A DNA stretch of 64,000 bases from Brachionus manjavacas (lineage: Eukaryota; Rotifera; Eurotatoria; Ploima; Brachionidae): assembly GCA_019054805.1 (NCBI GenBank), contig JAHQIY010000014.1, positions 1,178,001 to 1,242,000 of the forward strand. The letters are read 5' to 3'. Both the position numbers and the translations under genes were made by a program. Shown in pieces: positions 6,464 through 9,868 of the stretch. Position 1 is the first letter of the stretch, and each line of letters begins with the position of its first letter. The notes below the pieces were generated by a model. The model saw only the letters and a list, made by a program, of their open reading frames with translations, had not been told where the DNA came from and did not search any database.

Positions 6464-8328
6464 CTAAAGCTTTCTAATTTGACCACAAGCTATAATTGGT
6501 CCTGAATTTCCATTTACTCTTGACTTTTCGCTTAAACCCTTTCCAAGATCGTCGCTATTCTCATGAATCGCAAAACTTCTATACATTAAACTAAACTTAC
6601 CAGGACTTGACAAGTTTACTAGACCATTTTGCAAAATTATATCAATGTTGGCTTTTCCATTCGCGTCTGATTCTATATTGCCTAAATCACCCAAATGCTT
6701 GCTTAAATAAGAATCAGCCACATTACCATGTATTTTAATTGAAAGTGGATCATAGTGTGAGCCCAGTCTATCACACTCAGAAGTTATGTCCCCATATTCA
6801 TGAATATGAAAACCGTGAAGACCATTTTTTTTCAAGCCTTCTATTTTTCCGCTTATTCTAATGGTATTTTCATCAAAATCTTCAACAGTCAAAAAGCCTG
6901 ACACATTTTTCCATTTACCATGATTGATTACTGCAATGGCTTTATTTTTTTCTTGGCACCTTGATGACAAATAATCTTGATAGCATTGTTGTGAACAAGC
7001 TTCGATCAGCTCAAACTTTCCGCTGGTCTTATCACAATTGTATAGTGAATTATGATCTGCAGAAAATTTGCAATAATTTTCCTTGGACCTTCTGTTAAGC
7101 AAATGTCCACACACTTTGCCACTATAAGGACAACAGTTTATTTTAGCTGGATTGTTGCATACTTTTTGTTCATATTCAGTCTTGGTTATTTCAATTAAAT
7201 CTTCAAAAGTATAATCTGATGTTGGATAGAAGCGCTTAAGATCGCCGCTATTAGGCAAAATGTAATTAAATGACTCCTCGTGGTTGTCAAAATCATTCAG
7301 ATGCGAGTAAGCTTGGATTGAAATAGCCGCTCTAGTACTATTCAAATTGGTCAATTTATGGGTTTGGTACATGTTCGGTGTTAACCAAGTTATTTGACCA
7401 GCATGTAGACTGGTAGTTTTGACCGGGTCCTGATAAATGTTATTGCTTTCAGTCAAAGGATTGAAATAATCAGAGATCAGTGATCCATCTAACAGCTTGA
7501 TTAATCCAACTGTATTTCCATGGTCGTGGATCGGACTAAAATGTCCTTTTGGCCAGATTTCTAGTACATAGGGCTGTCCTGGAGATGAACCATCAACGTA
7601 ATCAAATGTTACTCTTAAATAGCTTGTTTTTTGATTGCTACTACCAAAAGACTTTTTGGCTTTTTCTCTAAGCTTCATGTTCAAGGAACATCCCACACTT
7701 TCTATTGAATAATTGATGGCGTCCAGAACATCATTTCCCATGTCAATGCCTCTACTCCTAACTATGTCGTACAAACGCTTTCCTTCAACTGGCAAGTCTT
7801 CTTTGGTAGTTATTCTAGTGTTTAAATCATCGAACCCATCTCTATCTATGTCATATATTCTCACTGATGGATCCTGAATAACTGGCAAATCTTCAACTCT
7901 GCTTTCAATTACATTCACGCTTTCATCCAATTTTAAACTTTTGATACTGCGCAAAAAATTGTTTGCTTCTGTAGTCTGAGGCACAAATTGGCTCAGTGTG
8001 TTATTTACCATTGTGTATCCAATGCCAATTTTTAAAAAATTTTTGCTCATTTTGACCCGATCTAAGGAATAAACAGAAATCCAAATTATCAGTTCGTCTT
8101 GTTTGAAGTGTATAAGGTCTATGCATGGATATTTCAAGTCAATTTGCTTGAAGCCAAGCTTTTCCAAATCATTTGACCAAATTTTTCGATCGGAAATCAT
8201 TATTTTGAAATTTTCAAATTGAAAGGCTATTTCTGGAATTTCATTTTTCAATGGGGAGATTTTTAGATGAGTCGTAAATTTTTTAGATGGTAAATCAAAA
8301 GTGCTGTCTTCGTTTTTCTTTGGAATAA
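6464..8328 (-). CDS. Cysteine dioxygenase-like cupin fused to Cu/Zn superoxide dismutase
   Basis: One long exon, 595 codons down from 8251, with an open frame to an acceptor-like AG at 8329-8330; the 5' exon and start codon are unresolved. Counting from 8251, residues about 165-350 are a type I cysteine dioxygenase cupin: IHDHGN gives His242/His244, MYQTH gives His298 and AYSH gives Tyr315, the 3-His iron triad and catalytic Tyr. The Cys that crosslinks to this Tyr in mammals is replaced by Gly, as in many bacterial enzymes. Residues 365-432 are Cys-rich. Residues 440-595 are a Cu/Zn SOD with all metal ligands (His482, 484, 499, 508, 519, Asp522, His563) and the disulfide Cys493/Cys589. The active-site Arg (human Arg143) is Ile586. 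Expected chemistry is sulfur oxidation of Cys or a related thiol, plus superoxide dismutation. No signal peptide is seen in the part I can read. Confidence 0.85.
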
Positions 8329-8333
8329 CTTGT

Positions 8334-9170
8334 TAAAAATTAGAGTTAAATAATTAAATATTTTGAATTAAATAAAATTTAATAAAAAATTTATTTAAAA
8401 GATCTATTCTGTGATATAATGGGAGCTAAGCTGATATTAAAGAGAAATTTTTATAATATTATATAAGCGGTAATTCTATAGAGATTACTTCTTTTTTCTG
8501 GCTTTTTTGGGAAAGCATTTTTCTCTCAAATAAAACCATATATTTCCTGTTAATGTTAAGAAAATAAAAATTCATTAAATGGATTTACTGAAAAAAAGAC
8601 AAGTAGAATTAGTTCAAGCAGAATTTATATGTTTATTTTTGTCTCCATTATTAAAACCTAAAAGTAAACTGTCATTATGCAGCCCTTTTATCAAAAATTG
8701 CCGACAGTTAGGAATCAAAACAAATTAAAATCTTATCAGAATTTAATTCAAAAAATTTAATATTTAAATTGAAAATCTTAAATATTTTCTTGAAAATTTG
8801 AACAATTTAAAACAATAAATGGACATGTACACATGATCGTAAAATATATCATAGGCGGACGATTAATTAACAAATAATTTTTTTCTTTATAACTTAAAAA
8901 ATCAAAAAAAATGAATGCACATACTGAATTAACTCGAAATTTTGAACTACTTGATGGTTTTACACTTTTTTAATTTTTGAAGTTATTGTTAAGCATTTTA
9001 ATAAAACATAGCTTTTCTACTTATTTTCGTTTTAATACCATCTTTTAAATTTCAATGAATTTGTAAAAAAAGTTTTATATTTTGTTTATGATGATTCGGC
9101 AGTATAATAATTGTTTAGGAGAATAACTCAAATTTATATTCCTTAAAGTGATTTTTGATTATAAATTTTA
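8334..9170. other. Intergenic gap with possible 5' exon of the CDO-SOD gene
   Basis: No complete gene is visible. A 5' exon of the minus-strand CDO-SOD gene must lie here if its start is not in the main exon. One candidate frame begins with an ATG near 8540 (minus) and ends at a GTAATC donor near 8485, but its join to the main exon is not convincing. The rest is AT-rich and featureless to my eye. Confidence 0.35.
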
Positions 9171-9868
9171 CTAACCTGTTGGTGAAGAAATAATACCGCA
9201 AACAAGTTTAGAATTCGGTTTTGAGATAACATTTGTTTTTGTCACAAAACCTTGCTTCATCCAACATGTTCCTCCTAAATAATCACTCCATGTAAAATGA
9301 GTACATCCCGGAGTCTTGGAACACTCAGATCCACACAATTCTGGAACAATGATTTTGTTCTTTAAGTTATTGTCTTTCCAGTCACAGTCCATGGCCCAAT
9401 TGAGTTTAGCTTTTGCATCGTAGTTCCATTTAACTTTATTTTCTATTGTATTTCAAAAAAAAATTAAACTGAAAAAAATTAAATACCCGATTGACTTAAC
9501 AGGCCACAAACTGCACTTGGGTCGCTTGATACATAAGCTTTATCTTTTGAAACAGAATTTTTTTTCATCCAACAAGTTCCGCCAAGATAATTTTTCCAAG
9601 TAAAATGTGTGCAGTCAGGTAATTTAGCACAGGCTGATCCGCATAGAGATCCTTTGATGTGAACACTTTTAAAATCGTTTTCAGATGCAAAATCACACCC
9701 AGTGGCCCAAAAAATATTACTAGATCGATCATAATTCCACTGAAATGCTTCTATTTGACTTATGGCTTTTTTTAAATTTAAATTTTTAAACAAGATTTTT
9801 TAGCGTCCCTTAAAATTACATGCTATTAACATCAATACAAAAACTGTTGTTATTTTAAATTTAAACAT
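9171..9868 (-). CDS. Small secreted protein with two PAN/Apple-like domains
   Basis: The start ATG at 9866-9868 opens a hydrophobic signal-peptide-like leader (MFKFKITTVFVLMLIACN). A Cys-rich exon ending at 9487 and a last exon 9171-9442 follow; the phase-1 GT-AG intron 9443-9486 joins them cleanly and the stop is TAG at 9171-9173. Each exon encodes one domain of the same pattern: WNYD, then W-A-x-x-C-D, CGxxC, CTHFTW, YLGGTCWMK and a final VCG. This spacing suits PAN/Apple-type carbohydrate- or protein-binding domains, common in secreted invertebrate proteins. The join between leader exon and first domain is unresolved: a phase-0 GT donor would truncate the leader, while a GC-AG intron would keep it whole. 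It is transcribed in the same direction as the CDO-SOD gene, and I see no functional link between them. Ligand unknown. Confidence 0.72.

Follow-up and report, generated by a model that had tools for sequence, protein, structure and literature searches.

A single open reading frame of the rotifer Brachionus manjavacas encodes a thiol-dioxygenase-like cupin and a Cu/Zn superoxide dismutase (SOD) in one polypeptide. The frame, 622 codons from stop to stop, is located on the minus strand (positions 8332-6464) of the 64,000-nucleotide stretch of DNA analyzed here, hereafter the window. Pfam identified both domains in it: CDO_I, with an E value of 1.7e-9 (37.9 bits, cut-off 23), and Sod_Cu, with an E value of 1.8e-32 (113 bits, cut-off 28.9); in the 595-residue translation started at a TTG codon they span residues 215-316 and 450-592, respectively. 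When the same sequence was resampled 300 times (first order) and read in six frames, the longest run was 210 codons and the mean was 94. The fusion proposed in the initial annotation is real: both Pfam domains fall inside one 622-residue frame, and the frame between them is uninterrupted, as had been stated, in the window gene and likewise in a paralogue located on another contig. A literature search, with animal protein databases outside its scope, gave no description of a combination of cysteine dioxygenase (CDO) and SOD, in agreement with the earlier statement that no established family carries this fusion. There may be orthologues in other animals that are annotated but have received no discussion.

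From position 8328 to position 6464 (minus strand) the frame codes for an orphan N-terminal domain, the cupin, a module with nine cysteines and the SOD, followed by the stop codon. Its first ATG is found only at about residue 57, within the conserved orphan domain. Position 8328, which the initial annotation took as the start, is likely a 3' splice site instead: the sequence at this point, TTTTTAACAAG followed by TT, is compatible with a phase 1 acceptor. Since no ATG precedes the conserved part, and the matching part of the paralogue starts right after its signal peptide, a 5' exon is needed; judged from the sequence, the 622-codon frame is probably the last exon (exon 4 below) of a larger gene. 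Residue numbers follow the 622-residue frame throughout.

The SOD domain (positions 6467-6943, minus strand) was assigned by its Pfam match, by matches to SOD1 entries of the PDB and by alignment. The metal ligands His509, His511, His526, His535, His546, His590 and Asp549 are kept, as are the disulfide cysteines Cys520 and Cys616. In the alignment, human Arg143, a residue of the active site that is not a metal ligand, is replaced by Ile613. Changes of Arg143 slow human SOD1 without abolishing its activity. The domain has in common with the extracellular Cu/Zn SODs (PF00080) all metal ligands, the disulfide cysteines and a probable secretion, but differs from them in being the C-terminal part of a multidomain protein and in the loss of Arg143. 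Five other places in the genome scored above the Sod_Cu cut-off, at least one of them with a clear signal-peptide-like, single-exon form. In a separate observation, the first of the tandem Cu/Zn SOD copies on contig 2 (region L064, approximately 7390432-7391751) likewise lacks the Arg143 equivalent, with Pro in its place.

The cupin (positions 7163-7795, minus strand) was identified by Pfam, with a match far weaker than that of the SOD, by a phmmer search of the PDB (best match 4ubg, E 6.5e-8) and by an eight-row alignment. Besides the window cupin, the rows came from the paralogue, from the CDO of the same genome (joined from two exons), from two unannotated CDO-like frames of Vibrio, from an MDO of Sphingobium and a CDO of Acinetobacter, and from a fragment of a rat chain that has Gly at position 93. 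PF07847 (PCO_ADO) was not among the Pfam matches of the window protein up to an E value of 1. The three iron ligands, His269, His271 and His325, are kept, together with Ser338 and Tyr342, the equivalents of Ser153 and Tyr157. The metal ligands of both halves are thus those claimed at the outset: the three iron histidines and Tyr342 (the Tyr315 of the earlier, 595-residue count) in the cupin, the six histidines and Asp549 in the SOD.

Other residues of the CDO active site have been replaced. By alignment, rat Tyr58, Arg60, Cys93 and His155 correspond to Val241, Phe243, Gly276 and Gln340; the Ser-His-Tyr (SHY) motif is absent, both the alignment and the PDB match giving Ser338-Gln340-Tyr342. Two alignments and the PDB match agreed in placing Val241 and Phe243 at the Tyr58 and Arg60 positions. 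A single-sequence structure prediction of the 622-residue exon alone had a mean pLDDT of 29.3 and was discarded as unusable, so the reading of Arg60 as Phe rests on alignment; if the register shifts, Arg240, three residues before Phe243, could substitute for Arg60. The two best PDB matches were CDO1 chains, 4ubg (Gly at 93) and 5efu (Gln at 155). The Gln printed at position 155 of 5efu means that the His155-to-Gln change has already been made in rat CDO; the literature search found no paper on CDO H155Q.

Passages of PMC8503633 describe a salt bridge between CDO Arg60 and the carboxylate of cysteine. They place Val85, Tyr87 and Gly119 of human ADO at the positions of rat Tyr58, Arg60 and Cys93, explain the missing Arg, as a presumption, by the lack of a free carboxylate in ADO substrates, and give a hydrophobic-Asp-hydrophobic sequence in place of SHY in ADO and PCO (PMC8503633). 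According to the sections of PMC10966181 concerned, small-molecule thiol dioxygenases conserve the His and Tyr of SHY; replacement of the His by Asn in MDO made kcat approximately 20-fold lower and lowered O2 coupling, and CDO H155A lost about two orders of magnitude in kcat. The same sections credit the Cys93-Tyr157 link with better coupling in mammalian CDO and note its absence from bacterial MDO, which works (PMC10966181); Gly276 alone is therefore no predictor of poor coupling. Elsewhere, part of PMC8050391 describes the SHY residues as enhancing, not required.

The window cupin shares with CDO1 the CDO_I match, the three iron histidines and the Ser153 and Tyr157 equivalents, but it is fused, probably secreted, and altered by alignment at Tyr58, Arg60, Cys93 and His155. 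With ADO and PCO it has in common an aliphatic residue, an aromatic residue and Gly at the Tyr58, Arg60 and Cys93 positions, the pattern of human ADO: those enzymes have no carboxylate-binding Arg and carry Gly or Val at the Cys93 place, which Phe243 and Gly276 fit by alignment. It differs from them in keeping the Ser and Tyr of SHY, with Gln where ADO and PCO have Asp. MDO has the same Gly at the Cys93 place, belongs to the same Pfam family and appeared as weak PDB and plasmid matches; however, no counterpart of MDO Arg168 was seen in the alignment, and the SHY His is lost. Because Tyr58, Arg60 and the SHY His are replaced by alignment, free cysteine is unlikely to be the substrate, and the name cysteine dioxygenase given by the initial annotation was overstated. 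Its residues suggest that the domain belongs to CDO_I but has a changed pocket that in part resembles that of ADO; it may be slow, poorly coupled or dead.

The remaining parts of exon 4 could not be assigned to known families. The orphan N-terminal domain (positions 7805-8299, minus strand; approximately residues 12-176) is shared with the paralogue, at 27% identity over the aligned stretch, and gave no convincing match in Pfam (best E 0.11) or in a PDB profile search (best E 0.1). Between the two enzymes lies the nine-cysteine module (positions 6953-7159, minus strand), with Cys392, Cys400, Cys401, Cys408, Cys421, Cys433, Cys446, Cys450 and Cys459, all nine of which are aligned in the paralogue; the window copy had no Pfam match up to an E value of 10. 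PDB matches of these orphan modules to CD3-gamma (E 0.02) and MCM8 (E 0.1) were taken as chance, as was a weak hit for the nine-cysteine module (contig 8, E 0.008) that contains two stops and lies opposite a long frame. By eye, that long frame looks like a receptor. In the same search the paralogue's own module had a worse score (E 0.019) and was therefore assigned from the alignment over the whole length.

A genome search with the window protein yielded seven matches: the gene itself, the five SOD-only places and one paralogue on contig 3 (326668-327696, E 1.5e-30, 32% identity), the match spanning the orphan domain, the cupin and the cysteine module. The paralogue is an uninterrupted frame of 641 codons (contig 3, 326440-328362; region L002, 1273-3195) with its own signal-peptide-like start. 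Aligned over the full length, the two proteins are 28% identical and have the same order of orphan domain, cupin, nine-cysteine module and SOD-like region, the paralogue adding a C-terminal domain without a convincing PDB match (best E 0.12). By alignment, the HDH of its cupin has become QDN, the third His Phe and the Tyr Leu, and in its SOD-like region the six histidines and the Asp are unmatched. Pfam recognized neither enzyme domain in it (best E 0.49, to an unrelated family), so its SOD-like part is known by alignment alone. These replacements suggest that the paralogue is a pseudoenzyme whose scaffold has been retained. The same order in an intact second gene identifies a two-member family, not a mis-assembly. 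Contamination or a mis-join was rejected, since the paralogue on another contig shares the order and the window contig carries a relative of NMDA receptors.

Candidate 5' exons were found upstream on the minus strand. The inferred exon 1 (positions 9820-9868) comprises an ATG and the hydrophobic, signal-peptide-like MFKFKITTVFVLMLIA, ending at a GTAATT donor in phase 1. The inferred exon 2 (positions 9487-9765) would encode a first PAN domain, with Pfam scores below the cut-offs (PAN_4, E 4.7e-5, 23.8 bits against 27; PAN_1, E 2.7e-4, 21.2 bits against 21.4). The inferred exon 3 (positions 9176-9442) would encode a second one, also below the cut-off (PAN_4, E 1.2e-5, 25.7 bits against 27), and ends in CAG/GTTAGT, phase 1. 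Joining 9868-9820, 9765-9487, 9442-9176 and 8328-6464 gives 819 residues with no stop; the introns, of 54, 44 and 847 nt, are all GT-AG and all in phase 1. The order in this model is signal peptide, PAN, PAN, orphan domain, cupin, nine-cysteine module and SOD, and such a fusion protein would probably be secreted. A two-PAN gene on contig 12, which has a further open frame downstream of its second PAN exon, carries a donor at the corresponding place, equal in phase to the donor after the second PAN domain of the window and at most one codon away from its position.

We consider it likely, on these sequence features, that the PAN exons are spliced to the cupin-SOD exon. The open frame in itself is weak evidence for this link, since the frame stays open in 5 of 12 donor-acceptor pairs near the PAN and exon 4 sites, including donor 9196 and acceptor 8307. 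The alternative, which we judge unlikely, is two separate genes, the PAN-PAN gene ending at the TAG just past 9176 and the cupin-SOD gene having its own first exon within 8329-9175. The second PAN frame does run into a stop immediately beyond its donor, and a scan of the gap for first exons with phase 1 donors found a single strongly hydrophobic peptide with an ATG start and a phase 1 GT behind it, at 8852. In addition, an ATG at 8575, 8539 or 8518 joined through a GTAATC donor (phase 0, as worked out by hand) to a phase 0 acceptor at 8317 gives an open frame. However, the 8852 donor, GTTCAA, is poor, and the peptides starting at 8575-8518 are weakly hydrophobic (0.59-0.67, compared with 2.72 for exon 1). 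The GTTAGT donor of the second PAN exon is better and matches the related two-PAN gene in phase and nearly in position. Separate genes would be compatible with any functional reading of the protein. The residues E-D-S-T occur near the start of the exon after the second PAN domain both in the window (8328-8290) and in the contig 12 gene (region L041, approximately 7388-7402), and may be a shared linker or chance.

The PAN module had 16 matches in the genome, including the two of the window (the exon 2 query found 15 further ones, one being exon 3). Seven regions were inspected, holding 12 of the 14 others; the two weakest, on contig 3, were left out. Pfam was run on seven frames from these regions: GH16 follows PAN in L043 and L045, a Thaumatin frame adjoins the PAN exon in L044, L042 and L047 have PAN only, and two L041 frames had no match. 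Other proteins that look secreted, glycoside hydrolases among them, thus also carry this module in front. The window protein shares the N-terminal PAN module with the PAN-GH16 proteins of the same genome, but the partner is a redox pair in the former and a glycoside hydrolase in the latter. L046, outside the Pfam scan, seems to be nearly a copy of L045, and on contig 12 two very similar two-PAN genes form an inverted pair.

The assembly (114 Mb, 61 contigs; the window sits in a contig of 2.4 Mb) is that of an animal genome, with seven Wnt matches at three loci and none in 14 control genomes. A CDO with the standard residues is encoded separately, on contig 1. No ADO/PCO match (PF07847) was found in the genome up to an E value of 1, searched exon by exon; the 14 control genomes gave one PF07847 match, below the cut-off, so that this null result is no strong proof of absence.

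We propose, with a probability of about 0.36, that the gene encodes a secreted, PAN-carrying two-metal redox protein that couples leaky oxidation of carboxylate-free thiols to a tethered SOD. The PAN domains, with a putative binding role, and the nine-cysteine module would keep the protein attached to a glycan or protein surface outside the cell. The cupin would bind ferrous iron via its three histidines and oxidise a thiol without an adjacent free carboxylate, such as cysteamine or the N-terminal cysteine of a peptide, not free cysteine. With the SHY His155 replaced by Gln and no Cys93-Tyr157 link possible, O2 coupling would be poor and part of the O2 would be released as superoxide; the tethered SOD would turn this superoxide, and that from thiol autoxidation, into H2O2. 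We infer the substrate class, the superoxide leak and the role of the SOD. The lowered coupling after replacement of the SHY His by Asn in MDO (sections of PMC10966181) suggests a job for a tethered SOD and, together with the better coupling that the Cys93-Tyr157 link gives mammalian CDO, lends limited support to a leak from the cupin; since the sections concerned report lower coupling, not superoxide release, the superoxide step is the weakest in the mechanism. The self-protection within the cell suggested by the initial annotation was probably placed in the wrong setting, the protein being probably secreted with PAN domains.

It is also possible, though somewhat less probable, that only the SOD works, the protein being an extracellular SOD whose cupin is a scaffold or a metal-binding platform without dioxygenase activity. 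The cupin scores far lower than the SOD and, by alignment, has no equivalents of Tyr58, Arg60, Cys93 and His155; as CDO H155A is about 100-fold slower (sections of PMC10966181), the Gln variant may be nearly dead. As the paralogue indicates, a member of this family can do without the iron site, and a full CDO is already present in the genome. Yet the iron histidines, Ser338 and Tyr342 are all kept in a far-diverged cupin, in the copy with intact SOD ligands, and the SHY residues are described as enhancing, not required (part of PMC8050391).

A thiol-driven H2O2 generator, in which the cupin would mainly reduce O2 with thiols and the SOD would make H2O2 for extracellular defence or digestion, is quite unlikely. 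Two features tied to good coupling in studied relatives are altered (sections of PMC10966181), and the PAN partners in the genome include GH16, but sulfinate production may still dominate, the SOD without Arg143 may be slow and MDO works without a Cys-Tyr link (same sections of PMC10966181). Slightly less probable again is that an extracellular, poorly coupled CDO_I-family dioxygenase of carboxylate-free thiols and its SOD yield controlled H2O2, the search of this animal's genome having found no ADO gene. That the SOD protects a genuine cysteine dioxygenase, as the initial annotation proposed, is very unlikely, despite the CDO_I family match and best PDB matches to CDO1 entries: by alignment, other residues stand in place of Arg60 and Tyr58, which bind cysteine; secretion is probable; and a standard CDO is found elsewhere in the genome.

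If both sites work, as in the two-metal redox protein that we propose, the gene would be a natural example of a superoxide dismutase tethered to a non-heme iron oxygenase. It would offer a direct way to ask whether thiol dioxygenases leak superoxide, and it would place the chemistry of thiol dioxygenases in the extracellular space of an animal. The natural changes of SHY to SQY and of Arg60 to Phe are informative about the role of these residues, and the ligand-less paralogue provides a natural inactive comparison.

Relatives were also searched for outside the genome. A scan of viral contigs gave 4 stretches fitting the pattern, and two scans of bacterial and archaeal contigs gave 93 and 56; no relative was confirmed among them, and the prokaryote scans, with two short patterns each, do not show absence. 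In tblastn searches of 72,556 plasmid records, the whole protein matched six, all over the SOD part only, and the cupin matched eight records up to an E value of 1, the best at 0.005.
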